Of a stretch of DNA of 64,000 bases, positions 13,335 through 50,391 are shown one piece after another. This DNA comes from Roseobacter sinensis (lineage in GTDB: Bacteria; Pseudomonadota; Alphaproteobacteria; Rhodobacterales; Rhodobacteraceae), in the NCBI RefSeq assembly GCF_025755255.1, contig NZ_JALIEB010000006.1:124001-188000 (forward strand), written 5' to 3'. Made by a program: the position numbers and the translations under genes. Below the pieces are notes generated by a model, which searched no databases, was not told the DNA's origin, and worked only from the letters and a program-made list of their open reading frames with translations. Each line of letters opens with the position of its first letter. Within the stretch, counting starts at the first letter, position 1.

Positions 13335-14017
13335 TGCAACAGCTCGATCTGGACCGGCAGAGCCTGCGCGAGGTGAATGCAACGCTTCAGGCGCAGTCCG
13401 ACCACACGAACCAGCCGATGTGGGAGATCGTGAACCCGAAAGGTGCCCACGCCATCGCCTGCGGGCTGGACGCCGATCTCGATGTGACCATCCGAGGCTC
13501 CGCGGGGTACTATTGCGGCGGCATGAACAAGCGCGCGACGATCCGTGTCGAGGGGTCGGCCGGGCCGGGACTGTGTGAAAACATGATGTCGGGCGTGACG
13601 GTCGTCGACGGCGACGCCAGCCAATACGCCGGGGCAACCGGCCGCGGCGGGCTGCTGGTGATCAAGGGCAATGCCGCCAGCCGCTGCGGCATCTCGATGA
13701 AGGGGATCGACATCGTCGTGCATGGAAACATCGGGCACATGAGCGCCTTCATGGCGCAAGCCGGAACGCTGGTGGTCTGTGGCGATGCCGGTGAGGCCCT
13801 CGGCGACAGCATCTACGAGGCACAGCTTTTCGTCCGGGGCTCGGTTGCCTCATTGGGTGCGGATTGCATCGAGAAAGAGATGCGTGCCGAGCATCTGGAG
13901 CGGCTGGCAGCGCTTCTCGAAGCGGCGGGCAGCACCACAGACCCGGCGTCGTTCCGGCGCTATGGCTCGGCGCGCACGCTCTACAATTTCGACATCGACA
14001 ATGCGGGAGCCTATTGA
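13334..14017 (+). CDS. mgsB: GXGXG-domain subunit of N-methylglutamate synthase-like complex
   Basis: 227-aa protein equal to the C-terminal beta-helix (GXGXG) domain of glutamate synthase. The repeat appears as GSAGYYCGGMN, GSAGPGLCENM, GATGRGGLLVIKG and GNIGHMSAFMAQAG. In glutamate synthase this domain is structural and holds the enzyme together; here it is a separate chain, as in MgsB and GlxC. It overlaps both neighbours by one base (TGATG on each side). Its N-terminal ~35 residues are outside the repeat. Confidence 0.87.
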   Translation: MQQLDLDRQSLREVNATLQAQSDHTNQPMWEIVNPKGAHAIACGLDADLDVTIRGSAGYYCGGMNKRATIRVEGSAGPGLCENMMSGVTVVDGDASQYAGATGRGGLLVIKGNAASRCGISMKGIDIVVHGNIGHMSAFMAQAGTLVVCGDAGEALGDSIYEAQLFVRGSVASLGADCIEKEMRAEHLERLAALLEAAGSTTDPASFRRYGSARTLYNFDIDNAGAY

Positions 14018-15351
14018 TGGAGCGGACGCCGAGAACCCATCCCGTCAAATCCTGGACCTTCGACGACTACACCAGCTCCTATATCCGGCGCGCGGCGGCG
14101 ACCGGGATCTATGACATCCGCGGGGGCGGATCGAAGCGCCGGCTGCCGCATTTCGACGATCTGCTGTTTCTGGGTGCTTCGATGTCGCGCTATCCGCTTG
14201 AAGGCTACCGCGAGACCTGCGGCACTGCGGTGACGCTGGGCACGCGCCATGCGAAACATCCGATCGAGCTCGATATTCCGATCACCATCGCCGGGATGAG
14301 CTTCGGCGCGCTCTCGGGACCGGCCAAGGAGGCGCTGGGGCGCGGCGCCTCTGCCGCGGGCACCTCGACGACGACCGGCGATGGCGGCATGACGGCGGAG
14401 GAGCGCGCGCATTCGACCAAGCTGGTCTACCAGTATCTGCCATCGCGCTACGGGATGAACCCGGATGATCTGCGCAAGGCCGATGCCATCGAGATCGTGG
14501 TCGGGCAGGGGGCGAAGCCCGGCGGGGGCGGCATGCTGTTGGGGCAGAAGATCAGTGATCGCGTGGCCGAGATGCGGACCCTGCCCAAGGGCATCGACCA
14601 GCGGTCCGCCTGCCGTCACCCGGATTGGACCGGTCCCGACGATTTGGAGATCAAGATCCTCGAACTGCGCGAAATCACCAGCTGGCGTGTGCCGATCTTC
14701 GTCAAGGTGGGCGGCGCGCGGCCTTTCTTCGACACCACTCTGGCGGTGAAGGCCGGTGCCGATGTCGTGGTGCTCGATGGGATGCAGGGGGGCACGGCGG
14801 CGACGCAGGATGTGTTCATCGAACATGTGGGGCTGCCGACGCTGGCCTGTATTCGCCCCGCGGTCCAGGCGCTTCAGGACCTTGACGTCCATCGCGAAGT
14901 TCAACTGGTGGTCTCCGGTGGGGTGCGGACGGGCGCCGATGTCGCCAAGGCGCTCGCGCTGGGGGCGGATGCGGTCTCCATCGGGTCTGCGGCCCTGATC
15001 GCGCTTGGCGACAACGACCCGGCACTTGAGGAAGAGTACCGCAAGCTTGGCACGACCGCCGGTGCCTATGACGACTGGCACGAAGGCAATGACCCCGCGG
15101 GCATCACGACCCAGGACCCGGTTCTGGCCGCCCGGCTCGACCCGATCCAGGCGGGTCGGCGCCTGACCAACTACCTCAAGGTGATGACGCTCGAGGCGCA
15201 GACGATTGCGCGCGCAAACGGCAAGAGCCACGTTCTGAATCTCGAGCCGGAAGACCTCTGCGCGCTGACGGTGGAAGCGGCGGCCATGGCGGGCGTGCCG
15301 CTCGCCGGCACAAGCTGGATACCCGGCACAACACACGGAGACGACATATGA
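14017..15351 (+). CDS. mgsC: FMN-binding glutamate-synthase-like subunit (N-methylglutamate synthase)
   Basis: 444-aa catalytic subunit with the FMN TIM barrel of glutamate synthase. Family blocks include MSFGALSGPAKEALG, GDGGMTAEE, GQGAKPGGGG, VDGMQGGTAATQ-type substrate loop (seen as LDGMQGGTAATQD) and VSGGVRTGADVAKALALGADAVSIG. The later cysteine-rich iron-sulfur cluster pattern of GltB is not obvious. MgsC and GlxD are the close family names. It starts inside the mgsB stop and its own stop overlaps the gmaS ATG (ATGA), giving four coupled genes. The amine substrate is inferred, not seen. Confidence 0.87.
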   Translation: MERTPRTHPVKSWTFDDYTSSYIRRAAATGIYDIRGGGSKRRLPHFDDLLFLGASMSRYPLEGYRETCGTAVTLGTRHAKHPIELDIPITIAGMSFGALSGPAKEALGRGASAAGTSTTTGDGGMTAEERAHSTKLVYQYLPSRYGMNPDDLRKADAIEIVVGQGAKPGGGGMLLGQKISDRVAEMRTLPKGIDQRSACRHPDWTGPDDLEIKILELREITSWRVPIFVKVGGARPFFDTTLAVKAGADVVVLDGMQGGTAATQDVFIEHVGLPTLACIRPAVQALQDLDVHREVQLVVSGGVRTGADVAKALALGADAVSIGSAALIALGDNDPALEEEYRKLGTTAGAYDDWHEGNDPAGITTQDPVLAARLDPIQAGRRLTNYLKVMTLEAQTIARANGKSHVLNLEPEDLCALTVEAAAMAGVPLAGTSWIPGTTHGDDI

Positions 15352-16649
15352 CGGATCTCGCACAATGGGCGGCTGAGAAGGGCGTTCGGTTCTTTCTATG
15401 TAATTTCACCGACCTCTTCGGTGTCCAGCGGGCCAAGCTGGTTCCGGCCGAGGCGATTGCCGGAGCGCAGAGCGGTGGGGCCGGTTTTGCGGGCTTTGCC
15501 GCCTGGCTCGACATGACGCCCGCCCATCCGGACATGCTGGTGATGCCGGATGCGGGCAGCGTCATGCAACTGCCTTGGAAGCCGGAGCTGGCCTGGGTCG
15601 CGGGCGATCCCTGGATGGACGGCGCGCCCGTCACCCAGGCTCCGCGGCTGGTGCTGAAAGAGCTGATCCGGAAGGCGGACGGGATGGGCCTGATGATGCA
15701 GTCCGGCGTGGAGCCCGAGTTCCACCTGATCAATGCCGATGGCTCCGCGATCTCGGACGACCGCGATATCCAGGAAAAGCCCTGCTACGATCAATCGGCG
15801 CTGATGCGGCGCTATGACTTGATCGCCGAGATCTGCTCGACCATGATCGCGCTTGGATGGAAGCCCTATCAGAACGATCACGAGGACGCGAACGGGCAGT
15901 TCGAGATCAACTGGGACTTCGGCCCCTGTCTGCAGACCGCCGACCGGCACGCCTTCTTCAAGTTCATGGTTAAGGAGGTCGCCGAGAAACACGGGTTGCG
16001 GGCCACCTTCATGCCCAAGCCGTTCTCCGATCTGACCGGCAACGGCTGCCATGTGCACCATTCCCTCTGGTCGGCCGAGGGACAGACCTGCGTCTTTGAC
16101 GGCGAGGACGAGATGGGCCTGTCGGAAACCGCCTATCATTTCCTGGGCGGTCTGATGGCGCATGGGCAGGCGATCTGCGCCATCACCAACCCGACCGTGA
16201 ATAGCTACAAGCGGATCAATGCGCCCGAAACGGTCTCGGGTGCCACCTGGTCACCGCAGTCGGTGACCTATGGCGGCAACAATCGCACCCATATGGTGCG
16301 GATCCCGGACGGCGGGCGGCTCGAGCTGCGTCTGGGCGACGGCGCGGCGAACCCCTATCTTTTGCAGGCGGTGCTGCTGGCCGCGGGGCTCGACGGGTTG
16401 GAGCGCAAGCTGGACCCGGGCAAGCGGCTCGACATCGACATGTATAGCGAAGGCCACAAGGCGCGCGGCGCCAAGAAGCTGCCGCTGAACATGCTGGACG
16501 CGCTGCGCGCCTTCGAGAAGGACAAGACCTTGACCGCGCTCATGGGGGATACGTTCTCGCGCGCCTACGTCAAGCTCAGGACGCGGGAGTGGAACCAGTA
16601 TTGCCAGCATCTCACCGAGTGGGAGCGCGACGCGACGCTGGACTGCTGA
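15348..16649 (+). CDS. gmaS: Glutamine-synthetase-like gamma-glutamylmethylamide synthetase (GmaS/GlnT)
   Basis: 433-aa ATP-dependent ligase joining an amine (methylamine) or ammonia to glutamate. It has the glutamine synthetase N-terminal beta-grasp (FTDLFGVQRAKLVP) and catalytic domain blocks SGVEPEFHLI, NDHEDANGQFEINW, MPKPFSDLTGNGCHVHHS, ITNPTVNSYKRINAP and NNRTHMVRIP. Length and sequence type fit GmaS/GlnT rather than the ~470-aa GlnA. Its fusion by overlap to mgsABC is the order expected for the indirect methylamine pathway, but the mgdABCD dehydrogenase genes do not follow. GlnT-GlxBCD of rhizobia has the same makeup, so a role in ammonium or another amine cannot be excluded. Confidence 0.85.
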   Translation: MTDLAQWAAEKGVRFFLCNFTDLFGVQRAKLVPAEAIAGAQSGGAGFAGFAAWLDMTPAHPDMLVMPDAGSVMQLPWKPELAWVAGDPWMDGAPVTQAPRLVLKELIRKADGMGLMMQSGVEPEFHLINADGSAISDDRDIQEKPCYDQSALMRRYDLIAEICSTMIALGWKPYQNDHEDANGQFEINWDFGPCLQTADRHAFFKFMVKEVAEKHGLRATFMPKPFSDLTGNGCHVHHSLWSAEGQTCVFDGEDEMGLSETAYHFLGGLMAHGQAICAITNPTVNSYKRINAPETVSGATWSPQSVTYGGNNRTHMVRIPDGGRLELRLGDGAANPYLLQAVLLAAGLDGLERKLDPGKRLDIDMYSEGHKARGAKKLPLNMLDALRAFEKDKTLTALMGDTFSRAYVKLRTREWNQYCQHLTEWERDATLDC

Positions 16650-16969: not shown

Positions 16970-18652
16970 ATGACCGAGCAGAGCCGCGATGCCGCCGAGA
17001 CGGCACAACCGCGGATGGTGCCGCTTTCCTGGTTCGGCCAGACGCTGTGGAAGTTTACGCCACTCTACGTCGAGCTGGTGTTCCTTGCGATCTGCATCCG
17101 GCTCCTGGGGCTGGTCGAGCCGTTCATCTTCCAGGTCATCATCGACCGGATCTTGCCCTTCCAGCGCGAGGCCACGCTGATTGTCGTCATGGCGGTCTTC
17201 GCCGCCGTCAGCGTGTTTCACATCGGGTTCAACATCCTGTCGAGCCTTCTGGGCATGCTCACCGCCAATCGGGTCACGCGCGAGCTTGGCAGCCGGATTT
17301 TCGAACATCTCTTCCGGCTGCCCTACAGCCACTTCCGCAAATGGCCGGTCGGCGAGACGATCGCCCGGGTCAGCGAGACCGATACGATCCGCGCCTTTCT
17401 GGTCGGGACCACGACGGGCGTGGTTCTGGACCTGCTGTTCGTCGTGATCTACCTCGGCGTCCTCTATACGCTCTCGCCGCTGCTGACGGCCATTGTCGTG
17501 GCCTCGCTGCCCTTGCAGGCCTTCGTCTATTTCATCTTCGGTCCCTTCCTGCGGCGGCGGCTCCGCGTGCAGTTCGACGCCGGGGCGCGGCACCAGTCGC
17601 GCATGGTCGAAAGCATCGGGGGCATCGCATCGGTCAAGGCGCTGAGTGCCGAGGACAAGATGCTCGGCGGGCTGCGCGAGACCCTCGGCGATACGCTCGA
17701 TGCGGGCCTGCGGGTGGGCAAGCTGCGGATCGCGAGCAGCAACCTGATTTATGCGGTCAGCCAGACGCTGACCATTCTCATCATCTTCATCGGCGCGCGC
17801 GAGGTCTTCGCCGGTGCGCTCACGCTGGGACAGCTGATCGCATTTCACCTGATTGCCGAAAAGGTCGCCTCGCCGATCAGCAATTTCTCGGGGCTCTGGG
17901 AGAAATGGCAGAACATCAAGATCTCGCGGCAGCGGCTGGGGGATATCCTGCTCTCCGAGCCCGAGGCCTTCGAGGCGCTGCCGCGCCTGCCAGCCGATGT
18001 GGAGCCGGAGCTGCGCTTCGAGCAGGTGGATTTCGCCTATCAGCCGGGCACGCCGATCCTGACGGAGTTCTCCTTTACCGCCAAGGCGCGCAGCCTGTCG
18101 CTGGTCATCGGGCCCTCCGGCATCGGCAAGAGCACCTTCGGTCGCCTGGCCTCGGGCATCGAGGCGCCGACGGGCGGGCGGATCACGCTCGATGGGCATG
18201 ACATCTCTGAGCACGAGCCGCACGACGTCCGCACCAGGATCGCCTATGTCCCTCAGGAACCTTACCTTTTCTCCGGAACCGTGCGCGAGAACCTGTCGCT
18301 GAACGTGGGTGCGGACGTCAGCGAGGCGGTCATCGCCGATGCCCTGCGAACCGCCGCGGCCGATGCGATGGTCGCGCGCCTGCCGCTGGGGCTCGACACC
18401 CAGGTGGGCGAGCGCGGTGCAGCTCTGTCCGGCGGGCAGCGTCAGCGCATCGCGATGGCCCGTTCGCTGCTCAACGCGCCCCGGGTTCTGATCCTGGACG
18501 AGCCGACCAGCGCGCTGGACGGGGCCGCGCAGGCGCAGATGGTGGCCGAGATCGAACGGCTGAAAGCGACCATGACCGTGATCGTGATCACCCATCGGCC
18601 GGACGTCTTCGCGACCCCGGATCAGGTCATCGACTTCGAGGCCCTGAGATGA
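16970..18652 (+). CDS. Type I secretion ABC transporter (HlyB/PrtD-like, no peptidase domain)
   Basis: 560-aa inner-membrane exporter half. Six TM segments lie within ~30-300, followed by an ATPase with Walker A GPSGIGKST (K387), signature LSGGQRQR and Walker B VLILDEPTSALD. The TM block and the RQRLGDIL motif before the ATPase match HlyB-type proteins. It starts directly with the TM domain, so it lacks both the C39 peptidase and the C39-like domain carried by many bacteriocin or RTX exporters. HlyD overlaps its stop (ATGA). The substrate may be encoded by the convergent genes at 20-22 kb (inference). No TolC-like gene is in the window. Confidence 0.9.
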   Translation: MTEQSRDAAETAQPRMVPLSWFGQTLWKFTPLYVELVFLAICIRLLGLVEPFIFQVIIDRILPFQREATLIVVMAVFAAVSVFHIGFNILSSLLGMLTANRVTRELGSRIFEHLFRLPYSHFRKWPVGETIARVSETDTIRAFLVGTTTGVVLDLLFVVIYLGVLYTLSPLLTAIVVASLPLQAFVYFIFGPFLRRRLRVQFDAGARHQSRMVESIGGIASVKALSAEDKMLGGLRETLGDTLDAGLRVGKLRIASSNLIYAVSQTLTILIIFIGAREVFAGALTLGQLIAFHLIAEKVASPISNFSGLWEKWQNIKISRQRLGDILLSEPEAFEALPRLPADVEPELRFEQVDFAYQPGTPILTEFSFTAKARSLSLVIGPSGIGKSTFGRLASGIEAPTGGRITLDGHDISEHEPHDVRTRIAYVPQEPYLFSGTVRENLSLNVGADVSEAVIADALRTAAADAMVARLPLGLDTQVGERGAALSGGQRQRIAMARSLLNAPRVLILDEPTSALDGAAQAQMVAEIERLKATMTVIVITHRPDVFATPDQVIDFEALR

Positions 18653-19977
18653 GACGCGGCCCTGCCTCGCTGGGTGTCGGCTCGCCCACGCTGCACGCCA
18701 CGGTGCTTTTCACCTTGTCGGTCTTCGTCGCAATCCTCGTGATGTCCTATGCGCTGAAGGTCGAGATCGTGGCCAAGGGGACGGGCAAGATCGTCCCGCT
18801 CGGGCGGGTGCAGGTCGTGCAGCCAGAGTTCGCGGGGCAACTGGCCGCCATTCACGTGCGCGACGGCATGCGCGTTGCGAGGGGCGCGGTGGTGATCGAG
18901 CTCGATCCGACCAATGCGCAATCCGCGCTCAACACGCTGCGCGCCGAAGAGGAGCGCTTGCAGATCGAGCGGCGGCGGATCGAGACGGTACTCGCCGCAC
19001 TTCCGGCCTTCGAGACGGGCGAGACAGATGATATCTCCGTGCATGAAGCCGCGTTCCTCGGTGATGCGCCGCAGGTGCCATCGCGCTTTTTCAAGGAGCA
19101 GCGCGCCTTGCTTACGGCCGAGCTGACCGAGCTGCGCGATGCGCTTGTCCAGATCGACGCGCGCCTGCTGGCCAATGAGAAATCAAAGGAGGTGACGCGG
19201 GCGGGGATCGGGCGGATCGACGCCGCGCTGGAGACACAGCAGGAGCGGCTGGAGACCGTGCAGAGCCTGCTCGACAAGGGCACGGCCAGCCGCGCCAACT
19301 ATCTCGACGTTCTGGACGGCTTCAACACGTTGGAGAGCGAGCGCGAGGTCTTCCTGCGCGAACTTGATGAAAAAACGGCGCAGGATGCCTCCTATATGGC
19401 GGAGCGGGCCGGCATCCTGTCCGCCCTGCGCAGCCGGCTGCAAACACGGCGGGCCGAGCTCGAGGCCCGCGGCGCGGCTCTATCGGAGGAGTTGGTCATC
19501 GCCCGCCGGCAACTGGCCAACACGCGGCTGGTCGCACCCGAAACGGGGGTGATCGACCAGCTTTCCGTTTTCACCATCGGCGGGATCGTCGAGGCCGGTC
19601 AGGAGCTTCTGCGGGTCGTGCCCGCGGATCAGGCCTTTGAGGTGGAAGCGATCTTTCCCAATATAGATGTGGGCTTTCTGGAGGTTGGCCAGAAGGCCAA
19701 TGTTAAGCTCGACGCCTATCCGGCCGAACGCTTCGGGGCGTTGGAGGGTGTGGTTTCCAACGTGTCGGCGGACGCCATCGAGGTTGAGACCAACAGCTTC
19801 GGTTTCGTTGTCCGCATCGCACCTGACACGCCGCGGCTGGAGACGGCTACGGCGAGCTACGCGGTCCAGCCCGGCATGACAGCGGTTGTCGACGTGATCA
19901 CCGGCGAACGGCGGCTGATCAGCTATTTCTTCGCGCCCATCGTGAAGGTGGTGCAGGACAGCCTCGGTGAGCGCTAA
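18649..19977 (+). CDS. HlyD-family membrane fusion protein of type I secretion system
   Basis: 442-aa periplasmic adaptor linking the ABC exporter to an outer-membrane TolC channel. One N-terminal TM helix (~17-40) is followed by a first half-lipoyl segment (VVQPEFAGQLAAIHVRDGMRV), a long coiled-coil hairpin (~95-290, rich in E/R/L heptads), the second half-lipoyl part (LVAPETGVIDQL) and a C-terminal beta-barrel (QPGMTAVVDVITGERRLISYFFAPIV). The last block is typical of HlyD proteins. ATGA overlap with the ABC gene shows one operon. A hairpin followed by TTTT ends the transcript. Confidence 0.9.
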   Translation: MRRGPASLGVGSPTLHATVLFTLSVFVAILVMSYALKVEIVAKGTGKIVPLGRVQVVQPEFAGQLAAIHVRDGMRVARGAVVIELDPTNAQSALNTLRAEEERLQIERRRIETVLAALPAFETGETDDISVHEAAFLGDAPQVPSRFFKEQRALLTAELTELRDALVQIDARLLANEKSKEVTRAGIGRIDAALETQQERLETVQSLLDKGTASRANYLDVLDGFNTLESEREVFLRELDEKTAQDASYMAERAGILSALRSRLQTRRAELEARGAALSEELVIARRQLANTRLVAPETGVIDQLSVFTIGGIVEAGQELLRVVPADQAFEVEAIFPNIDVGFLEVGQKANVKLDAYPAERFGALEGVVSNVSADAIEVETNSFGFVVRIAPDTPRLETATASYAVQPGMTAVVDVITGERRLISYFFAPIVKVVQDSLGER

Positions 19978-19986
19978 GTGCGCGGC

Positions 19987-20009
19987 GCGCGCCGGGCCTG
20001 GCGCGTTTT
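19987..20009 (+). terminator. Rho-independent terminator after hlyD
   Basis: CGCGCC (19988-19993) pairs with GGCGCG (20000-20005) across a 6-base loop and is followed directly by TTTT. It lies 10 bases after the hlyD stop. Confidence 0.65.
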
Positions 20010-20030
20010 GCCTTTGAGCCGAGACGGGAC

Positions 20031-20091
20031 GCGTCACCCCTTGCATTGATTTCATTGAAATCAGGCGGCGAGAGGTGACGCAGCTGCAAGG
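20031..20091. repeat. Nested palindromes between convergent hlyD and the 20101 gene
   Basis: TGATTTCA-T-TGAAATCA (20047-20063) is a perfect palindrome inside GCGTCACC (20031-20038)/GGTGACGC (20074-20081). A third pair, CCTTGCA (20039-20045)/TGCAAGG (20085-20091), crosses the second. It sits between convergent stops and may form alternative or pseudoknotted hairpins. Confidence 0.6.
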
Positions 20092-20100
20092 CGACTTGCT

Positions 20101-20955
20101 TTAAGTCGTCTCCCAGACCCAGCACCGGTCGTCGCGGTATTCGGACAGATGCTGCGCGCGGGTCGCTGCGGCGGCGAGAAGCGCGTCGAACTCTGTTCTC
20201 AGATGCGCGCGCATCTGCTCCATCTTGTGCAGACCGGAGGTAGAGGGGCCGAGCAGCAGCTCCAGCAGAACGATGTCCACGCTGCACAGCCCGATCGGGT
20301 TGTTGTGGAACCACTGGGAATAATCCTTGTTGCGCAGATCTTCCCCAAGCAGCGACACGATCTCGGTGGTCTCCACGTCAGAGGCGCGCAGGATCGACTG
20401 GATCAATTCTTCGGTCATGATCGAACGGGCCACCTCTTGCGGCATGTCGTCGGCGAAGGTCGAAAACGTGAAAGATCGGTGGCGCGACCCGGGAAGGTCC
20501 ACCGAAAGACCGAGCGCCCATTCGGGAAACAACTCATCGGGATTGGGGGGCCCGCTGCCGACGATGCGCTCCATCACGTCGAGCAACTCCGATTGATCGG
20601 GCCGTTCGCCCTGCACCACATAAAAGGTGGTGCTATCGGTCGGGCAGTCTGCCAGATCATCCACCAGAACCTGCGTCCACCCCAGCTCGAACGCCTCCGC
20701 CATATCGGAGACGATCCGGCTGGGGGGGAACGCGGCACCTGAATGCTCCTGGATGCAGAAGGTCTCGGAGCCGTTTCTGACCCGGAGAATGGGATTGCTG
20801 ATCTCGTCGCTGATCTTCGAGGCGAAGGCGGCGTCGAAGATGCTCTGTGTTTTTGCCGCGAGATCGCCGCGGGCAAGCAGGGTGCTGGCGAGCGCCGCGA
20901 GGCCCGCACAGAGCGCGATCAGCAGGATGGAAATCTTCATGTGGGATGCCCGCAT
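20101..20955 (-). CDS. Exported protein of unknown function in the secretion island
   Basis: 284-aa protein beginning with a hydrophobic signal-like segment (MKISILLIALCAGLAALAST after five residues), then a mostly soluble body. I do not recognise it firmly. The C-terminal third (MTEELIQSILRAS ... CSVDIVLLELLLGP ... MRAHLRTEF) resembles the end of DUF2927 proteins only weakly. The ATG at 20955 has GAGG seven bases upstream; the ATG at 20940 is an alternative. It is the last of three minus-strand genes (metallopeptidase, CTGCH protein, this one) and converges on the type I secretion pair. An envelope role linked to the small protein is possible but unproven. Confidence 0.65.
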   Translation of the reverse strand: MRASHMKISILLIALCAGLAALASTLLARGDLAAKTQSIFDAAFASKISDEISNPILRVRNGSETFCIQEHSGAAFPPSRIVSDMAEAFELGWTQVLVDDLADCPTDSTTFYVVQGERPDQSELLDVMERIVGSGPPNPDELFPEWALGLSVDLPGSRHRSFTFSTFADDMPQEVARSIMTEELIQSILRASDVETTEIVSLLGEDLRNKDYSQWFHNNPIGLCSVDIVLLELLLGPSTSGLHKMEQMRAHLRTEFDALLAAAATRAQHLSEYRDDRCWVWETT

Positions 20956-21008
20956 CGGCGCGCCTCGTCGTCGGGTGTGGAAGGGGCGCGGGACGCCCCT
21001 TCGCTGGA

Positions 21009-21311
21009 TCAGTTCGGATAGTGCGTATCGTAGGCGCCCTGGTGGCAACCGGTGCAGCCGCCGATGGATCCGGTCGGGCTGTCGGGCCAGCCATTGGCCG
21101 CCTGGTTGACCTGCTGTGCGGCATGTTGGCGGGTGTCCATCTCGGACCACGCGTTCTCATTTCCGAGCGCATTGTCGAGCGCCTGCTGCGTCGCGGAGTT
21201 GTCGCGGTCCATTTTCGAGGTGATCGCATCGGGGCCATCACTGCTGCTGCCGCCACTGCTGCCACCGCCGCAAAAGCTCACTGGAGAGTCAAAAGCGTCA
21301 AAATCAAACAT
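21009..21311 (-). CDS. Small protein with Gly/Ser cluster and terminal GG-CTGCHQG motif (candidate secreted peptide)
   Basis: 100-aa acidic protein without a Sec signal. Near the start a Cys is followed by a Gly/Ser run (CGGGSSGGSSS); the middle is polar, Asn/Gln/Ala-rich and helical-looking; the tail is SIGG-CTGCHQGAYDTHYPN. The GG before a short Cys-rich tail resembles a double-glycine leader junction, and CTGCH matches the heme-c CxxCH pattern, though without a signal peptide heme attachment is doubtful. It lies between a metallopeptidase gene and an exported protein and faces a type I exporter lacking a peptidase domain. A precursor peptide or secreted protein is a reasonable hypothesis; it resembles no family I know. 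Confidence 0.6.
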   Translation of the reverse strand: MFDFDAFDSPVSFCGGGSSGGSSSDGPDAITSKMDRDNSATQQALDNALGNENAWSEMDTRQHAAQQVNQAANGWPDSPTGSIGGCTGCHQGAYDTHYPN

Positions 21312-21505
21312 CGGTCATGTCCTGTCATTCGGGTGGTCTTTGATGTATAGAACCCCCCATTGCTGTTTGCCGGGCTTCACGCCCGGCGGCTCAATCGGCG
21401 GGAGGGGAGGCACCCCCTTCCGCCAACCATTCGGCCGGTGGCCGAATTCTCTCTGCTCCATAGCGCCTGCCACCACAGCACCGACGGGCGCGCACCGAGG
21501 GTCTA

Positions 21506-22321
21506 TCATGCTGCCGCACCCCTCGGGTGCCAGGCTGCAGCGCAGTGCTGAATGTAGGACCCGCCCTCCGGTCCGGCTCTGTAGAGCGCGCCGAGATTGC
21601 ACGCGCTCTCCGAGCGGAAGAGACGCGCGGCGATATGGCGGGCAAGCGGATAGTTCCAAGCGTATCGGTACGGCTGCCGGGGGTCGGTCATGGCTTCGGC
21701 AAGCGCGCGGGCGTTGTCTCCGAAGTAGATTGCGTCATCGGCCTGATGGGCTGGGGCAAGCGCGGCAAAACGCGTCGGCAGGTGCTGCAGGATCGCAAGC
21801 TCGGCAAGAAAGGCACAGCATTCGCGCGCGACGGGCGGCATTTGCCCATCGCTACGGCCCTGGCTGGCGACGATTTGCAGGGCGTGGCCGACCTCATGCG
21901 CCATGGCCAGCAGATCGACCGGTCGGTCTTGGTAATGCAGGCTCACGAGGGGCAGGGCGCCGCCCCCCAGATCGTAGGTGAAGGGTCGGGGATGCTTGCC
22001 GGCCCGTGGCGCCAGACACTTGGGGGCGCGCATTTCGACCTCGCCAATTTGAGTGCCAAGCTCGGGGACCGCGGCGCGCAGCGCGCCGGCGCAGAGACCC
22101 CAGGCCTGCGCTGCGGAGAGCCCCAGACGGGCCGGAACTGGCGGCCCGACCGATCCGTCCGGCGCGGTGATCGCAGCCAATTGTGCCCGCACCAGATCCC
22201 GTGTCAGCCCGTTGACCGCGAGCCAGTCGTCAAAGCCAGCCTTTGGTTGGGTGCGCGGTGCGGCGGCCGCCGACGGTCTCTCCGCCTCACCAAGCAATAC
22301 CTTGAGCTCCAATGGCCACAC
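21506..22321 (-). CDS. Compact M3-like zinc metallopeptidase
   Basis: About 271-aa protein with a zincin active site AMAHEVGHALQ (HEVGH at ~142-146) and downstream acidic residues in PPVARECCAFLAEL, the arrangement of M3/oligoendopeptidase F peptidases (HExGHA ... E). Ahead of it, GALPLVSLHYQDRPVDLLAMAHE resembles the strand-plus-helix before the M3 zinc site. M3 enzymes are usually 550-700 aa, so only a catalytic core is present. The start is uncertain: GTG at 22321 (GGGG nine bases upstream) or TTG at 22336. A peptide-cleaving role on the neighbouring 100-aa protein is inferred from position. Confidence 0.65.
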   Translation of the reverse strand: MWPLELKVLLGEAERPSAAAAPRTQPKAGFDDWLAVNGLTRDLVRAQLAAITAPDGSVGPPVPARLGLSAAQAWGLCAGALRAAVPELGTQIGEVEMRAPKCLAPRAGKHPRPFTYDLGGGALPLVSLHYQDRPVDLLAMAHEVGHALQIVASQGRSDGQMPPVARECCAFLAELAILQHLPTRFAALAPAHQADDAIYFGDNARALAEAMTDPRQPYRYAWNYPLARHIAARLFRSESACNLGALYRAGPEGGSYIQHCAAAWHPRGAAA

Positions 22322-22362
22322 GTGAAAATACCCCAAAGTAAGCGATTGAGCGGAACGCTACG

Positions 22363-22412
22363 GCGGATCACATTTTAGTCAACGAGGAACGCGGGTCGCG
22401 AAAATGATCCGC
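22363..22412. promoter_or_regulatory. GCGGATCA/TGATCCGC inverted repeat between divergent genes
   Basis: Perfect 8-base arms (22363-22370 and 22405-22412), each followed inwards by a T/A-rich extension (CATTTT and AAAA), flank 34 bases between the metallopeptidase and GNAT-like genes. It is a candidate shared operator. The rest of the 310-base gap (22322-22630) shows no gene. Confidence 0.45.
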
Positions 22413-22630
22413 GGAATAGCGCCGCATGACAGGGACCGCTTCGGCGGCGCTTTTCTCATCGGGCGGAGTTCCGCCTTGCGACCGGGTCGGCCCTGCAAGG
22501 CATCGCCGAAAAGACAACGCGGCAAGGAAGATGATGGACAGGGCCGCCGGCCCTTGAGTCTTCTCGGGCCCATGCTGGTGGCCGCCAGTTGCAGCTGCCG
22601 GAGGTGATCAGCCGCACCGTGGGAGAGAGC

Positions 22631-23116
22631 ATGGGGGACACCGCAAGACTATGGATTCGACCGACGCAGGCGCAGGATGTGGATGTCGTTCTGCCGCAGT
22701 TGGCCGAACGGGCGCTGGCCGAGATCGACCGCTTCCTGCGCGATGACCCGCCGGAGGCGCGCCTCGCCATCATCCGCGATCACGTCCTTGCGTCGATTGA
22801 GGCGGGCCGAGCGGACACGTTTCTTCTGGGGGATGCGCCGGTGGGTATCATCACCCATACGCCCGAGCGCGACTATCACTATACCACTGCGCTGCCGATG
22901 GAACGCTATTTCGAACGCGATTTTCTGCGGATCTCGCGAAGCTACGGGCAGGACCTCGCGCGGCGTCTGGGGACCGGTCTGCGCGCCTACAGCCGTTCGG
23001 AGCATGCGCGCGTCGGCACCTGGTTCTCGCTGATGGGCTTCAGGTTTGCGGGATGGGACGGGGACGCGCGGGTCTTCGTCTTCGATCCGGGGCGGTTCGC
23101 GCATGCGGGGCGCTGA
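22631..23116 (+). CDS. GNAT-like acyltransferase-fold protein
   Basis: 161-aa soluble protein. The pattern IRPTQAQDVDVVLPQLAERALAEI at the start, DTFLLGDAPVGIITH in the middle and RAYSRSEHARVGTWFSLMGF near the end resembles GNAT-fold proteins of the kind common in phages and accessory DNA. The usual acetyl-CoA loop (Q/R-x-x-G-x-G/A) is not clear, so catalytic activity is uncertain. GGGAG lies five bases before the ATG. It diverges from the metallopeptidase gene across an inverted repeat, so the two may be co-regulated. It could modify a peptide, but nothing in sequence proves this. Confidence 0.5.
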   Translation: MGDTARLWIRPTQAQDVDVVLPQLAERALAEIDRFLRDDPPEARLAIIRDHVLASIEAGRADTFLLGDAPVGIITHTPERDYHYTTALPMERYFERDFLRISRSYGQDLARRLGTGLRAYSRSEHARVGTWFSLMGFRFAGWDGDARVFVFDPGRFAHAGR

Positions 23117-23161: not shown

Positions 23162-24655
23162 TCAACGCTCGAAGGTTTCGAACGCGCCCGGCGCGCGCAG
23201 GACGCGCCCGCTGACGAAGCCTTGCCGGCCTGTCGCGTCCGTTGCATTGTACCAGACGGCGTTTGGCGCGATGCAGGTGGTGGTGTAGCGATCTCGCAGC
23301 CCCCGCCACTCGGGGCTGCCGTCATCGAAAAGGTTTCGCGGAGCTTCTGCGCGATCGAGCTCGGCGCAAAGCTGTGCGCAGCGGCTGCGGCGCTGCGGCG
23401 ATCCGAGAAAGACGGGCGCGGCGCCTGTCAGTTCGACCAGCGCGAAGCGCGGGACTTCAGCCGTCACCGCAGCGTCAAAGCCCGGGGCAGCACGCAGCGT
23501 TGCAAAGCTGTTCACCTCGGCGATGGCCGCGCGCTGGCCTGCGGGCTTGCGACAGGCGCCGCGAAACGCTTGCGTCAGATCATCCTCCCAGATCGCAAGA
23601 TGGATGTAAGGACCGAGCGGTACATCGCCGGGCTTGCGAGGCAGGCTGGCAAGCGGTTGATGCGGTGACAGCCCCGCGATCCTGTCGTATCGCCAGTATA
23701 CGTCGCAGGTGAACCGACCATCCAAATCGAAACTCGACACTCCGATCCGAACGCCGAGGCTCTGATCAATCCCGCAGACTTCAATGAGATCCTGCGCAGG
23801 GCGCACACGGCATTCGTGCAGGAGATACCCTGCATTGGACCCTGTGACCAGGTAGCCATCGCCGTCTGGGCGCGGCGGGTCCCACGTCTGCGAGGCCTCA
23901 GGCGGGTCGCGCAGGGCCTGCCACCGGGTCAGGTTGTCACAGGCGTGTTGCGCGGCAGCGGCATCCAGAGAGGGGAGTTCGGCATAGCCGAAGAGTCTGA
24001 TGCCCCAGCGCCGCGCCTTGTCGACGGTGTCGATGAAAAGATAGTCCTCTCCGCGGCGCAGAAACATCGCACGCAAAAGATCCGACCGGATCATGGGCCG
24101 ATTGCTCACCGGCGCATTGCGGTTCGCCAGAAGCAGCAGATCGGCCGTTGTCTCCAGCGCGGCGGCAAAGCTGGCCTCGACCTCGCCCAGTGAGTAGAGC
24201 CCGTCGACGGGCAGCGGCAGGTCCAACTCGGGCCGGTGAAAGCCCAGCGTGCCGCCGACGTGCAGATGACGGTCGAGGAAATCATCCTCGTTCGACCGGA
24301 CGGTGCCCATCATGAAGACAACAGCGCAGGCAGAGAGGCAGCTTGCATTCTCCTCGATCACGGTGCCGATGCCGGTCTCGTAGATGTGGGCGCCGATCCG
24401 GATGGCTTCGGCCAGATCGCCGCCGTCCGGACTGTCGAGGCAGAGCGGAAAGGACACGCCGCCGGGGTAGAAAGAGGGCGGCAGTTTCTCCCGCACCGCC
24501 TTGAGGCGCGCCAGATCGCCATCCCGGATCGGCCCGCTGAGCCGCATGACACAAGTGGGGCTGTCAACCAGCTCGATCTCGGCAGCAGGCGACGGGCCCG
24601 CAAGGCTGACAGCGCCGAGCCAGGCTGCGGCGAAGATGCTAGCAGCTCTCGACAT
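23162..24655 (-). CDS. Exported ClpP-fold (COG3904-like) protein with C-terminal extension
   Basis: 497-aa protein with a signal peptide (cleavage near PSPAAE, ~25). Residues ~65-230 match periplasmic ClpP/crotonase-fold proteins: LCLDSPDGGDLAEAIRIGAHI, then ENASCLSACAVVFMMG, with Ser108 at the usual nucleophile position, and LGFHRPEL. Two flanking cysteines (CLSAC) are typical of this periplasmic branch. Residues ~230-497 are an unassigned, Cys-containing region; the end (WYNATDATGRQGFVSGRVL) looks SH3b-like. The start is chosen at the signal peptide, which overlaps the upstream gene by 17 bases. Proteolytic activity is unproven for this branch. Confidence 0.7.
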   Translation of the reverse strand: MSRAASIFAAAWLGAVSLAGPSPAAEIELVDSPTCVMRLSGPIRDGDLARLKAVREKLPPSFYPGGVSFPLCLDSPDGGDLAEAIRIGAHIYETGIGTVIEENASCLSACAVVFMMGTVRSNEDDFLDRHLHVGGTLGFHRPELDLPLPVDGLYSLGEVEASFAAALETTADLLLLANRNAPVSNRPMIRSDLLRAMFLRRGEDYLFIDTVDKARRWGIRLFGYAELPSLDAAAAQHACDNLTRWQALRDPPEASQTWDPPRPDGDGYLVTGSNAGYLLHECRVRPAQDLIEVCGIDQSLGVRIGVSSFDLDGRFTCDVYWRYDRIAGLSPHQPLASLPRKPGDVPLGPYIHLAIWEDDLTQAFRGACRKPAGQRAAIAEVNSFATLRAAPGFDAAVTAEVPRFALVELTGAAPVFLGSPQRRSRCAQLCAELDRAEAPRNLFDDGSPEWRGLRDRYTTTCIAPNAVWYNATDATGRQGFVSGRVLRAPGAFETFER

Positions 24656-25163
24656 ATTGCGCGACGCCGGCGCCGATGTTGGTGGCGCCGATTTCCTGGT
24701 TGAGATGGTCGAAGAAAGGGCCGTAGACCCGCTGTGTCGTGGCTGCAATCGGGCAGAAGTAAGCGTGCAGCAGAGCCCGGTCGCACAGCCCGGCGGTGTC
24801 GCAGAACTGCGCGCGTTCAAAAATGCTCGCGGTCTGCATCAAAAAAGCGCGCACCTCGGCCTGGTACTCAGAGACCGGGAATGTGGCCCCAACGAAGGCG
24901 GCGTATTCGCCTGTCGTCAGCGCGTGGGTGCGGATGTGCGCAACAAAGGCCGGATGCGACGACCAGTAGGCATGCATATGCGTCTGCCCCTCGATCATCG
25001 CCGGGCCGCCGTGCTCCTCGATCAGGGCCAGCGCGCGCTCCTGCGCGGCTGCTGCGTTGTCTTGCGCCCGCTCGTCGAAGTATCGCCACAGGCCGAAACA
25101 GGCGATGAGTACCCCGATGACGCCCAGGCAAACGTCGAAGATGCGTTTGGTTGCGTCATTCAC
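24639..25163 (-). CDS. Single-pass membrane protein of unknown function
   Basis: 174-aa protein with one N-terminal TM helix (~8-26, VCLGVIGVLIACFGLWRYF), then a helical, His/Glu/Ala-rich periplasmic or cytoplasmic body containing four cysteines near the end (QFCDTAGLCDRALLHAYFC and a C-terminal SC). No family is recognised. It overlaps both neighbours (8 bases with the gene before, 17 with the ClpP-fold gene after), so the three products are translationally coupled and probably work together at the inner membrane/periplasm. Confidence 0.65.
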   Translation of the reverse strand: MNDATKRIFDVCLGVIGVLIACFGLWRYFDERAQDNAAAAQERALALIEEHGGPAMIEGQTHMHAYWSSHPAFVAHIRTHALTTGEYAAFVGATFPVSEYQAEVRAFLMQTASIFERAQFCDTAGLCDRALLHAYFCPIAATTQRVYGPFFDHLNQEIGATNIGAGVAQYVESC

Positions 25164-25518
25164 CGGTGCTGGCCTCGATCAGGCAGCGGGCGGGCCAGAG
25201 GCGGTGAAAGGGCGCGGCGCGGTCGATCTTCGCATCCGCCAGACACTCCAGCTGCGGACGGGTCAGGACGATCAGCGCATCATGCGCGCGCTCCTCCAGC
25301 TCGAAATCCGGCGCGCTGTTGGTGACGTAGTCTCGGAAGTCGACCGCTGTTTCAGGGCAGCTCGGCAGCGAGATGACGTAGGCCACCTTGTCCTCGGCGA
25401 GATAGGCGCTGGTGTTGGCCGAGAGGCATTCCAGATCAGCGGTGCGCAGCACATAGACGGTCTCGCTCGCAGCCGCCGTGCCCAGACCGGTCAAGACAGC
25501 GACGAGGCTGCGTGTCAT
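25156..25518 (-). CDS. Small exported protein of unknown function
   Basis: 120-aa protein with a Sec signal (MTRSLVAVLTGLGTAAASE) and a body with four cysteines (DLECLSANT, SLPSCPE, QLECLADAK, PARCLIEA) that may form two disulfides in the periplasm. An in-frame ATG eight codons earlier is the alternative start. First gene of the minus-strand trio with the TM protein and ClpP-fold protein. No known family is recognised. Confidence 0.6.
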   Translation of the reverse strand: MTRSLVAVLTGLGTAAASETVYVLRTADLECLSANTSAYLAEDKVAYVISLPSCPETAVDFRDYVTNSAPDFELEERAHDALIVLTRPQLECLADAKIDRAAPFHRLWPARCLIEASTGE

Positions 25519-25736
25519 CACCTTCCGCGCGTCCACGGCCACCCTCCGTTCCTGCGGTTCCCGGTTCAGGTATAGGACACCAAAAACGCCTTGCCTAGAT
25601 TTTCGGACCGCCGTTGGTCCAAGCTTGCCCTGGGTGCGGCCCCTGTGCGCGGGCCTGAATTCTGATGACAGGGGCGATCCCGCTGTTTAGGCTCCGATGC
25701 ATAAAATTTTACCTTTTCAAAGTCGGTCTCTTATCC

Positions 25737-43278: not shown

Positions 43279-44430
43279 ATGGCACAGGACTTCGATGTGA
43301 CACACCCCTACAGCACGGAGGCTGGCGCCCATACGGGCGCCGCAAAACGCGTTTTGGTCGTGGACGATTCCCGCGCGATGCGGGCCTGGCTCCGGACGGT
43401 CTTGACAGCGGACCCGCGGTTGCACGTGGTGGGCGAGGCTGCGGATGCGGTCGAGGCTCGGGACTATATCAAGGCCAACCCCGTCGATGTTCTGACGCTC
43501 GACATTGAAATGCCGGGGATGAGCGGGCTGGACTTTCTGACGCGTCTGATGCGGGCGCGGCCCATGCCGGTGGTGATGATGTCGAGCCTGACCGCTGCGG
43601 GCAGCGAAGCGGCGATCCAGGCTTTGTCGCGCGGCGCTATCGATTGCATGGTCAAACCGACCTCGGCCTACGGCGAAGAGCTCACGAATGACATTTGCGA
43701 GCGTGTTTACCACGCCGCCTGCACGCGCCCGTCGCAGTTGCAGATGTGGTTGCAGACCAAAGGTGCGCGCCCCGCGCCCGCCGCTGCCGCGCCAGCCTCG
43801 CAACAGCGTCATGCCTATCGGCGCGGCGCCCTCATTCTGATCGGAGCGTCGACCGGCGGTGTGGCCGCCCTCGAGACGGTGCTGCCAGCACTCGATCCGC
43901 ATGGGCCGCCTGTCGTGGTGGTCCAGCATATGCCGGGCAACTTCCTCGTCAGCTTCTCCGAGCGTCTCAATCGTCAATTGCCGCAGAATGTCTATCTGGC
44001 CGATGAGAGCCGCGCGCTCGAGAACGGCGACATCGTGATTGCGCCCGGGCATGACCGTCACACCGAAGTGCGCAACCGCGGCGGCAGCTGGTATTGCCGC
44101 TTCGTTCCGAACGATCCACCTGCGCTGCATTGCCCATCGGTCGATGTGTTGTTCGCCTCTGCGGCGTCGCAGGCGCGGCACATCTCCGCGGCCCTGCTCA
44201 CCGGTCTTGGCCGCGACGGGGCGGATGGGCTGCTGAAGCTTTCGCAGGCAGGGGCGGCAACTTTTGGCCAGGACGAAGCGACCTGCGTCGTCTACGGCAT
44301 GCCGAAGGCTGCCAAGGCACTGGGTGCGATACAGCGTGAACTGCCGTTGGACGACATCGGTGCGGCCATCCGCGATAGCCGCATTGCGCCGAGACGAGAT
44401 GAGGCGCATGGAACGGAGCAGATGCAATGA
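43279..44430 (+). CDS. cheB: Chemotaxis protein-glutamate methylesterase CheB
   Basis: 383-aa adaptation enzyme that removes methyl groups (and deamidates) on chemoreceptors when phosphorylated by CheA. A ~22-residue N-terminal extension precedes the receiver domain (VVDD at 28-31, phospho-acceptor D75 in TLDIEMPG). The catalytic domain carries GASTGG (S191), VQHMPG (H217) and GLGRDGADG (D313). It overlaps cheD by four bases (ATGA). The cheBD pair is on the opposite strand from the cheA operon and converges toward it across 1.1 kb. Confidence 0.95.
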
Positions 44431-44945
44431 CGGGTCCGCGGGTTCATATCACGCAGGGTGAACAAGCTGTTGGGTCTGATCCCGACATGGTGATCACCAC
44501 TCTGCTGGGATCTTGCGTCTCTTGTTGCCTCTGGGATCCGGGCGCTGGGGTCGGCGGGATGAACCATATGCTCCTGACCAGTTCGGCGTCCGGCGGCGGT
44601 GCGTCTCAGCTGCTCGGTGTCAACGCGATGGAGCTTCTCATCAACGAGATCCTCAAACAGGGCGGCGATCGCCGCCGCCTGCGGGCCAAGGCGTTCGGCG
44701 GCGCGCGGATGGTTGCGGGCCTGAGCGAGATCGGGAAACAGAACAGCGACTTCATCCTCAACTTCCTCGAACGCGAGGGGATTGTCTGTGAAAGCCATTC
44801 CTTGGGTGGATATACCGCGCGTCATCTGAAGTTTTGGCCCGCATCGGGTCGTGTCATGCAGAGGATCCGCGACGATGCTCCGCAGGAGACAGTCGCGCAG
44901 GTCAGCGCACCGGAAAGCGCGGGCAACGGGCTCGAGCTGTTTTGA
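44427..44945 (+). CDS. cheD: Chemoreceptor glutamine deamidase CheD
   Basis: 172-aa enzyme deamidating glutamines on chemoreceptors. Family blocks: [31 protein letters not shown] with the catalytic Cys in [15 protein letters not shown] with the His, and [13 protein letters not shown]. The C-terminal ~40 residues are less conserved. ATGA overlap with cheB. There are no methyl-accepting chemotaxis genes in the window, so its receptors are elsewhere. Confidence 0.93.
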
Positions 44946-46023
44946 TCACTTGCAACGCCCGGGGCTTCGAACCATCTCATTTGCACCGCAGGCTGTTTGG
45001 GGCCGCCTCTGTGCGGACCTGACGGTACCGCGATTCGTATGCGCATGCGTTTGACGGCGCAGCGGGCCAAAGGCGTTCGGCGGTCACCGGCTTGAACGTA
45101 GTCTTGCCTTAACAGCTCGTGATCCTGAAAACCGGATTTGTCCTGCCTTCTGAGAAAATGAAATTACTTCAATAGGCTTATGTGAGCTTCCTCAAATCCT
45201 GCCTATGGCGGCAGCAGCTTGATCAGTCTACGCGCGCGTTAGGCAGTTTTCGGATTGGCGACGTGCGTCGACTTGATCCTCAGTGAAACTTCGTCCGACG
45301 CAGGCCTAAGCGACGAGCTTCGCAAACAGCCGGCAGGGCGGTCCTCCGCCAGGATGGTCCTTGGGCGTATCCTGACTGCTTAGTTCAACACGTCGTGGTT
45401 GGTAAAATCAGCCCGCTTCCCCATGCAAGCAAAGCGCCGGCTCCATCTGTGTCGGGAATAGCGTTCCTTACGGCTTGGCGGCATCGCACGACGCTGTTCC
45501 TGTTCACAAGTGCCGTGGTCGCCTCGTTGCTTTCTTAGCCGGACCTGCTGACGCAGGTCGATGACCAACTGCTGCAGCGGCATGGCTCCTGGCCTCGCTC
45601 TTGGTCGTAGCGTAGGTGGCCCGTGGGGCTTGTGATAATCAACGGCAACACAGCGGACCGCTCAGCATCCAGAGATCTAGCCGGATCGATAGCGATATGC
45701 AGCACTTCGTCTTGAGCTTTGTCTGTTCAATCGGACGACTTGCGAAAGTCGCTCACCCATGTATTTTCACCTTTCTGCAGCAGTTTTTGCGGAAAGATCG
45801 GATTTGGGTTTGCTGATTGGCCGAGAACGTGTGATCGACCCCATCTCACCGTTGCGACCGAGTTCGGCGAAACTAAAACAATCTGGGATACTATTGGCGC
45901 AAACGACCATAGAAAGACGTCGCATTTCGATCATGGATCAATCGTCTTGCACTTGCATCGGGTGCAGTTTTTCCCGGCCGGTTCAACTCAGACCCCAGAG
46001 TGTTGAAAAAACGCCCGGCTTCG
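44946..46023. other. 1.08 kb region without a supported gene between convergent chemotaxis operons
   Basis: Base composition is less GC-rich than the neighbours, especially 45680-46010. Short open frames occur on both strands but none matches a family I know. A small hairpin with a GCGA tetraloop (CGACTT/AAGTCG, 45736-45751) was noted. A minus-strand T-run lies just after the last gene of the cheA operon (A-run at 46006-46011 on the plus strand) and may help end that transcript. A decayed insertion is possible but not shown. Confidence 0.5.
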
Positions 46024-46398
46024 CTAGAAGAGGTCCAGATCGTCAGCGCTGTCCTTCTTCGTCCCGAAATCGTCATGTTGCTGCCCTTCCAGAACAGCGC
46101 AAGTCACCTTCAGCTTAAGTTTCTGAGAGATTTTTTCAATTTCCGGGGCCGTGAGTGACACTTTGTTTTCTTGTCCGATCAACAGGGTCATTATGGCCAA
46201 ATCTTCGAGGGACTGGCGCAAAAAATCGAGTGACTGGAGGCTCGTGATTGTTTGAGGCTCAGCGGAACTGCTCGTGTCTACAGCGTGACTGATTGCTTCT
46301 TCCAGATCGAAGATCTGGCCGGCAAGTTTGTCCAGATAGGACGAGAGTCTGATGTTGATGGTCGATATCGGATGCTCCGATCCGTTATCAGCGAACAT
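46024..46398 (-). CDS. Small chemotaxis-operon protein, CheT/CheZ-like CheY-phosphatase candidate
   Basis: 124-aa mostly helical acidic protein, last gene of the cheA operon. The segment LQSLDFLRQSLEDLAIM contains D58-x3-Q62, the DxxxQ arrangement that CheZ uses to dephosphorylate CheY, and the C-terminus ends DDLDLF, reminiscent of the CheZ tail that binds CheY-P. Alphaproteobacterial che operons often carry such a short protein (CheT in Sinorhizobium). It is far shorter than CheZ (~210 aa) and overall homology is not obvious, so the function is an inference from motif and position. It begins one base before the stop region of the cheY2 gene. Confidence 0.6.
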   Translation of the reverse strand: MFADNGSEHPISTINIRLSSYLDKLAGQIFDLEEAISHAVDTSSSAEPQTITSLQSLDFLRQSLEDLAIMTLLIGQENKVSLTAPEIEKISQKLKLKVTCAVLEGQQHDDFGTKKDSADDLDLF

Positions 46399-46785: not shown

Positions 46786-46787
46786 AT

Positions 46788-50382: not shown

Positions 50383-50391
50383 GAGCCCCTC

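Follow-up and report, generated by a model that had tools for sequence, protein, structure and literature searches.

A stretch of 64,000 nucleotides from Roseobacter sinensis (contig NZ_JALIEB010000006.1, positions 124,001 to 188,000 of the forward strand; "the window" below means this whole stretch) carries six genes whose probable task is to make, trim and export a small peptide. Judging from sequence comparison, it is moderately likely that this set is a reduced member of a peptide-export family, in which a divergent M3-like metallopeptidase reads an N-terminal motif on the cargo and an exporter pair, an ATP-binding cassette (ABC) transporter without a C39 domain and an HlyD-type adaptor, carries the cargo out. 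The peptidase and a motif-bearing gene were common to all 12 loci at which the peptidase was found: the window, L006, L008, L044, L045, L046, L047, L049, L058, L059, L070 and L071 (L and G numbers denote loci and genomes; G000 is the genome of the window). Because both are shared by two exporter clades that are only 22-27% identical, the peptidase most likely recognizes the motif, as their co-occurrence suggests.

The candidate cargo and its N-terminal motif

The candidate cargo gene (21009..21311, minus strand) encodes a small protein of 100 amino acids (aa) with the motif DSPVSFCGGG, a single Lys at position 33 and a C-terminal GGCTGCHQGAYD; the protein ends in SIGGCTGCHQGAYDTHYPN. It has no match in Pfam or NCBIfam. 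In each of the 12 peptidase loci, a gene with an N-terminal motif like D-L-x-x-P-V-S-F-G-G-G-G lies at most 1.8 kb from the peptidase gene, and a type I exporter was present in the fetched stretch of 11. A preliminary description of this DNA had linked these genes by position only, a limit that these counts now remove. The same counts favor its suggestion that the small protein is cargo served by a separate protease, in that the genes occur as one unit, but its proposed GG-CTGC junction did not prove to be a general cutting site. GG before CTGC is found only in the three closest peptides (window, L008 and L006), where GGCTGCHQGAYD, with CTGCHQGAYD, is invariant; of the six other aligned cargo, L058 alone ends in GGCR. 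The GG-CTGC segment was dropped as a common cutting site, and the cargo alignment points to the N-terminal motif as the family-wide element.

Nine of the 12 loci carry the motif by a strict regular expression and three carry variants recognized by eye, namely L046 and L047 (PISFS/GISFS, at the heads of acidic repeat proteins) and L070 (TVSYGG). The expression [VAILF]SF[GCS]G was applied to the first 70 residues of every distinct open reading frame (ORF) of the window and the loci with a length of 50 aa or more. It matched 13 of 3133, of which 12 were cargo candidates and one was a chance match. An earlier run on fewer loci gave 12 matches in 2542 ORFs, 11 of them cargo. The matched cargo include two each in L006 and L045 and one in L048, a locus without the peptidase.

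At the DNA level, the pattern PVSF-x-GGG was found at 8 places in 7 of 265 genomes of the bacterial family. Three of these are cargo of G000 and G063, and the other five are read by no complete frame of at least 40 codons in 3-kb stretches. The reversed control pattern gave 16 places against 8, so the raw count indicates no enrichment; what sets the pattern apart from its control is the reading-frame check alone, which was applied to the pattern matches only. The pattern caught two of the four carriers in the set and missed variant cargo (G025, G038 and the second cargo of G000). Small-protein homologues widespread without exporter or peptidase, which the preliminary description had named as evidence against its reading, were not seen: the pattern was in frame in two of the 265 genomes, and both carry the peptidase.

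The small protein is 88% identical in L008 and 50-53% identical in L006. Two short peptide patterns, taken from the first two small proteins, were run against the species-genome collection, a search of limited reach. It returned two loci, L008 (88% identity) and L009 of Actibacterium sp. 188UL27-1, L009 and L006 being one and the same stretch. In nine other genomes of the genus no such protein was found, and a search of the plasmid collection with the small protein, the exported protein and a peptidase-HlyC fusion gave no match. Four weak small-protein matches (L003, L004, L005 and L042; E 2e-4 to 0.0098) were rejected, L003 and L005 since they overlap longer same-strand ORFs and L004 and L042 for their internal stop codons.

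The cargo are otherwise dissimilar. The window peptide has no hydrophobic stretch (maximum mean hydropathy 0.27). The cargo of L059 and L070 are glycine-zipper-like (PF13488, E 1.6e-4 and 1.1e-3, both below the curated cut-off), and L070 has a small hydrophobic neighbor gene that could encode an immunity protein. These stretches and this neighbor are hints that the L059 and L070 cargo are membrane-active competition peptides, and from these two relatives a role in competition is a first guess for the family. The proteins headed by the motif in L045, L046, L047 and L071 are acidic, with NEG/DEG repeats and lengths of 63 to 1065 aa, and the longest look structural. Their genes lie at L046:10623-13820, L047:6343-9468, L045:7128-9389 and 13708-16296, and L071:7919-8287. 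Standing beside TIGR02466 oxygenases, peptidase and exporter, their products are possibly hydroxylated secreted proteins.

The M3-like peptidase

The peptidase gene (21506..22336, minus strand) starts at TTG 22336 or GTG 22321 and encodes about 271-276 aa. The protein carries HEVGH and gave a weak match to the M3 model TIGR02290 (E 1.6e-4, far under its cut-off). A profile of the family matched the structures of an oligopeptidase (3ahm, E 8e-6) and oligoendopeptidase F (2h1j, E 1e-5). In an eight-member alignment, H143, E144 and H147 of the HExxH element and the downstream E168 are invariant. With HExxH, the downstream Glu and these sequence matches, and because its score is far below the TIGR02290 cut-off, the enzyme is best placed as a distant branch of the M3 metallopeptidases (oligopeptidase F group).

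Profile A3 was used to search the bacterial family and profile A6, built from eight members, for further searches at E 1e-12. With A3, the divergent M3-like family was found at E below 1e-30 in 5 of 394 genomes of the bacterial family, the next best among the matches listed being 1.4e-8. Some M3-type match at E 0.001, mostly of ordinary oligoendopeptidase length, was present in 379 of the 394. Listed matches outside the peptidase family (E 1.4e-8 or weaker, mostly in frames of at least 600 codons) were treated as ordinary oligoendopeptidases and left uncounted. Profile A6 found one genome among 385 drawn from the class, the window's own, and two in each of two further sets of 80 genomes of the bacterial family. 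A weak match to the small protein brought in G636, whose contig then showed the peptidase.

The window's genome has a second peptidase copy, at G000:C11. This copy belongs to a second cluster of the family (L044, G000:C11:1190-5314) with an HlyC-type gene, a cupin gene, its own cargo and its own RNA leader. The window exporter might serve this cluster in trans. Proteins distantly like the L044 cupin are encoded on 21 plasmid records; three inspected regions lie near nonribosomal-peptide-synthetase-type or lanthipeptide-type genes. On a Rhizobium johnstonii plasmid (L051:3880-11792), a cupin-like protein is encoded with a gene annotated as lantibiotic dehydratase on one side and one annotated as LanC family on the other.

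The exporter pair

The ABC transporter (16970..18652, plus strand, 560 aa) matches TIGR01846 over model positions 119-662 of 694, with 443 bits against a curated cut-off of 725.55, and TIGR01193 over positions 157-680 of 708. Since these models, of type I secretion and peptide export, are matched only past their N-terminal part, the C39 or C39-like domain is absent. The HlyD-family periplasmic adaptor (18649..19977, plus strand, 442 aa) matches TIGR01843 with 309.7 bits (cut-off 208.65). The transporter is 90% identical in L008, 75% in L070, 68% in L006 and L058, and 66% in L059; the adaptor is 81% identical in L008 and 44-61% in L070, L006, L058 and L059.

By tblastn across the loci, the exporters fall in two clades. 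The window's clade (64-90% identity) contains the window, L008, L006, L058, L059, L070 and L049, the last broken off by a contig end after 47 residues. The second clade, at 22-27% identity to the window exporter, contains L045, L046, L047 and L071. Among 72,556 plasmid records, the exporter closest to the window's is that of Sinorhizobium meliloti pSymB (L057:8965-12482), which is 44% identical and is accompanied by HlyD and an HlyC-type gene, with no visible cargo.

Arrangement and conservation of the module

The exporter pair (16970-19977, plus strand) faces a minus-strand gene group (20101-22336) transcribed in the order M3-like peptidase, RNA leader, 100-aa protein and exported protein. 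The preliminary description had reported a C39-less ABC/HlyD pair facing a peptidase, a small protein and an exported protein, and both the models and L008 bear this out. Its gene set was correct in the genes that it named, but was one gene short: the gene at 22634-23116 is also kept beside the module in L008, at 68-70% identity.

L008, from an uncultured Roseobacter, has all six genes in the same arrangement, with neighbors that by eye differ from those of the window. On the exporter side these are a TetR-like regulator and an RND-type efflux system, and on the other side an alpha/beta hydrolase and a betaine-type transporter; the window module has glutamine-synthetase-like and glutamate-synthase-like genes beside it. 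Identities other than those given above are 68% for the exported protein and 51-52% for the peptidase. The sequence of L008 thus supports 16970-23116 as the limits of the module and its six genes as one unit. Because L008 holds the six genes between different flanks, the module looks transferable.

Next to the module, at 23162-25542 on the minus strand, are three successive proteins with signal-like or membrane segments (by eye); they have no Pfam or NCBIfam match and were not seen beside the L008 module. Elsewhere in the window, 44427-51029 holds a chemotaxis-type gene group (by eye), and GC content falls to 0.52 at 46001-48000.

A three-hairpin RNA leader

A conserved three-hairpin RNA leader, absent from the preliminary description, lies at 21330..21432 on the minus strand (model match 21359-21431), 18 bases upstream of the small-protein start codon. 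The leader precedes nine cargo genes: those of the window, L008, L044, L048, L058, L059 and L070 and two in L006. As delimited here, it ends 14-18 bases before the start codon, and its linkers are conserved (about AUUGAGCC and CAAACA-CAA). In folding stability each of the nine leaders exceeds the average of its shuffled versions (z -2.3 to -6.3; window z -2.9).

In helix P1, 52 of 54 cells are paired and four positions have two-sided changes, with 6 of 10000 shuffles as good. Helix P2 is fully paired (45/45) and varies too little for testing, 2232 of 10000 shuffles reaching the observed value. Helix P3 is also fully paired (36/36), and all four of its positions are changed on both sides, with a shuffle control that is biased, its pairs having been chosen by folding. 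The helices were anchored by hand, P1 from the folds, and related sequences can exceed shuffles without structure; the counts are therefore support for the structure, not proof.

A search with model R1 scored the nine leaders at 62-81 bits (window 79.2 bits, E 3e-23 in 352 kb), and the next match in the 352 kb was 28.3 bits, antisense to one leader; as R1 was built from the nine leaders that it finds, only the lack of other strong matches is informative. Whole-genome scans covered 11 genomes, scoring 150 of the 405-2182 candidates in each. Among the scored candidates, the window's genome had no other place above 24 bits, and in ten more genomes strong matches were limited to six cargo leaders, in G063 (two), G566, G418, G431 and G636. 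The best score in G326, G025, G038, G561 and the same-genus control G266 was 21.8 bits. At the Rfam gathering score, the window and seven loci with the other leaders gave no leader match, a tRNA gene in L058 being the one match in these stretches; permissive thresholds, applied to three leaders, gave nothing convincing. Because eight of the nine leaders lie between a same-strand upstream cluster gene and the cargo, the arrangement may let the cell produce cargo in excess of enzyme, or control when the cargo is made.

Accessory genes and exported proteins

HlyC-type acyltransferase genes are present in 8 of the 12 peptidase loci. The assignment is firm (PF02794, E 6e-27, 5e-25 and 3e-15; ApxC structure, E 5e-17). 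In the HlyC-bearing clusters, a second HlyC-like domain is often fused to the peptidase (profile comparison E 3e-4, at a probability of only 39%). Seven loci carry 2-oxoglutarate-type oxygenase genes, with matches to PF05118 (E 1e-17), PF13621 (E 1.5e-29) and TIGR02466 (E 8e-62 and 5e-76). TIGR02466-type oxygenases accompany acidic NEG-repeat cargo in L045, L046, L047 and L071. Cupin/JmjC-type genes are found in L006, L044 and L070, and also in L048, with no peptidase nearby. Because the acyltransferases and oxygenases occur in only part of the loci and the exporters differ, the peptidase and the motif stand out as the constant core.

In the window, the place of the HlyC genes of other clusters is occupied by a gene for a 160-aa protein without recognized fold (22634..23116, plus strand, from ATG 22634; ORF from 22589). 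Neither Pfam nor NCBIfam matches the protein, PDB sequences gave nothing below E 0.38, and it does not significantly resemble the HlyC profile. It is no more than suspected of being acyltransferase-like (GNAT).

The exported protein (20101..20970, minus strand) is encoded directly downstream of the small protein and has 284 aa from ATG 20955, if translation does not begin farther upstream. Its N-terminus is hydrophobic (a 19-residue stretch that begins at residue 10 has a mean hydropathy of 2.47). It is 27-29% identical to an Actibacterium protein (L006:9106-9933). It has no HExxH, no Pfam or NCBIfam match and no PDB sequence match below E 0.47. PF11150 (DUF2927) was not matched, and a profile comparison with one DUF2927 member was not significant (E 0.25). 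The exported protein is no constant partner across the clusters. Other extracytoplasmic proteins are encoded elsewhere: a DUF4344 metallopeptidase in L071 (E 2e-32), a DUF2927 protein in L006 (E 5e-9), HExxH proteins with signal-like starts in L044, L046, L047 and L048 (by eye, with no Pfam match above cut-off) and M16-like pairs in L049 and L059 (by eye). No exported protease-like protein was seen in L058 and L070.

Proposed mechanism and alternative explanations

In the mechanism that we propose, the 100-aa protein would be the cargo and its D-x-x-x-P-V-S-F-C-G-G-G segment the recognition element common to otherwise dissimilar cargo. The signal-less M3-like peptidase would read this motif and cut in or near the glycine run, taking on the job that a C39 domain does in other systems. 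The ABC-HlyD pair, presumably together with a channel of the TolC type, would then carry the peptide out. HlyC-type acyltransferases and 2-oxoglutarate-type oxygenases probably make further changes to the cargo of related clusters, and in the window the 160-aa protein may play such a modifying role. The exported protein would act outside the cytoplasm, in maturation or self-protection, and the RNA between the peptidase and cargo genes would set the level or timing of cargo synthesis.

Several observations weigh against this mechanism. The motif was derived from the same clusters in which it is counted, and L046, L047 and L070 fit it only by eye. The mechanism does not explain the C-terminal GGCTGCHQGAYD, although no other part of the three closest peptides is as well conserved. 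L048 has cargo and a cupin gene with neither peptidase nor exporter within about 10 kb, a counter-example to the grouping in the preliminary description, though the same genome has a peptidase on another contig (L049). In L044 the exporter is represented by an HlyD remnant only, on a contig that begins 1.2 kb upstream of the peptidase. No leader precedes the cargo of L045, L046, L047, L049 and L071, so it is not family-wide, and R1 was built from the leaders that it finds, as noted above. The window cluster itself has no HlyC match and no oxygenase. Two HlyC-linked cargo genes encode no Lys, the first peptide of L006 and that of L059 when read from an internal ATG (the longer reading has a Lys). 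Lysine acylation was accordingly dropped as a universal step, and the acyltransferases may therefore act on another residue or another protein.

M3 enzymes are cutters of short peptides, and the window enzyme may only clear leaders that are already cut off. The peptidase would in that case be a scavenger or quality-control enzyme working on short fragments, and other proteins, such as the exported one outside the cell, would do the trimming. This is unlikely, though it agrees with the nearest solved structures, an oligopeptidase and oligoendopeptidases F that act on short peptides, and with the second extracytoplasmic protease-like protein (DUF4344, DUF2927, M16-like pairs or HExxH proteins) that many clusters add. 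However, no other enzyme is shared by the two exporter clades, in all 12 loci the peptidase lies near a motif gene, and the M3-type proteins of mostly ordinary length in 379 of 394 genomes could do the scavenging. That the cargo is never cleaved, the motif being a signal for secretion or assembly and remaining on the secreted proteins, some of them structural, would suit the acidic repeat proteins of L045, L046, L047 and L071. It is nevertheless quite improbable: different exporter clades would all need to recognize one N-terminal signal, signals for type I export usually lie at the C-terminus, and the motif has the peptidase as its constant partner.

CxxCH is the signature of c-type cytochromes, and the invariant CTGCHQGAYD of the window, L008 and L006 could mark a heme- or metal-binding protein with unrelated neighbors. 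We regard this as very unlikely, as the small protein has no signal-like hydrophobic segment, which periplasmic heme attachment needs, and CxxCH is missing from the six further aligned cargo that share its N-terminal motif. The least probable account, to which we give almost no weight, is a chance neighborhood, in which an ordinary type I exporter, its substrate being encoded elsewhere, stands beside unrelated genes. The pSymB exporter, with HlyD and HlyC and no visible small cargo, speaks for such an account. Against it, six genes are kept in L008 between different flanks, and motif, peptidase and exporter occur together in 11 of 12 loci. Cutting of a motif-tagged cargo by the M3-like peptidase, followed by C39-less export, is the explanation that we prefer.

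Comparison with known systems

A literature search of titles and abstract openings, with partial coverage, returned no description of this gene combination. We suggest, tentatively and with slightly less than even confidence, that it represents a separate secretion class: PVSFGGGG-tagged cargo, a transporter-independent M3-type peptidase, HlyC/oxygenase modification of non-RTX cargo, two exporter clades and, in one branch, a new cis-regulatory RNA leader. If this is true, leader cutting is uncoupled from the exporter, where elsewhere one C39-ABC protein does both, and HlyC-type acyltransferases extend beyond RTX toxins. The motif, peptidase profile and RNA model would be genome-mining handles for such clusters, and the structured RNA would have a directly testable role.

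The export of peptides by ABC and HlyD-like proteins is shared with the NHLP/NHLM bacteriocin systems, whereas the window proteins score far below the cut-offs of those models (280.8 versus 709.4, 276.3 versus 853.3 and 47 versus 156.2 bits). HlyCABD RTX systems likewise combine ABC and HlyD, and share with 8 of the 12 related loci an HlyC-type acyltransferase (PF02794). They differ in that the window exporter lacks the C39-like domain and in the M3-like peptidase and N-terminal motif found here. The window module has no PF02794 match, and a scan of the ten proteins encoded between 16970 and 26708 gave no RTX-type match.

Class II microcins and bacteriocins of the colicin V type are exported by a C39-ABC transporter, an HlyD-type adaptor and TolC. 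The present family resembles them in its small ribosomal peptide, its ABC and HlyD-type proteins, the glycine-zipper-like cargo of L059 and L070 and the possible immunity protein of L070. In contrast, it has neither the C39 domain nor a common double-glycine leader, and it uses a separate M3-like peptidase; many clusters add HlyC, oxygenases and their own RNA leader. By the same two features, the C39-less start of the 560-aa transporter (TIGR01193 match from position 157) and the missing common double-glycine leader, the system falls outside the peptidase-containing ABC transporters (PCATs).

Separate metalloproteases are also known for ribosomally synthesized and post-translationally modified peptides; those named in the available part of PMC10885120 are the M16 pair PttP1/PttP2 and enzymes of families M1, M50, M61 and M103, and the terms "M3 family" and "type I secretion" do not occur in that part. 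The likeness lies in a stand-alone metalloprotease encoded near the precursor gene, and extends to the M16-like pairs of L049 and L059. The window enzyme differs in being M3-like, which places it outside the families named in that part of the article.

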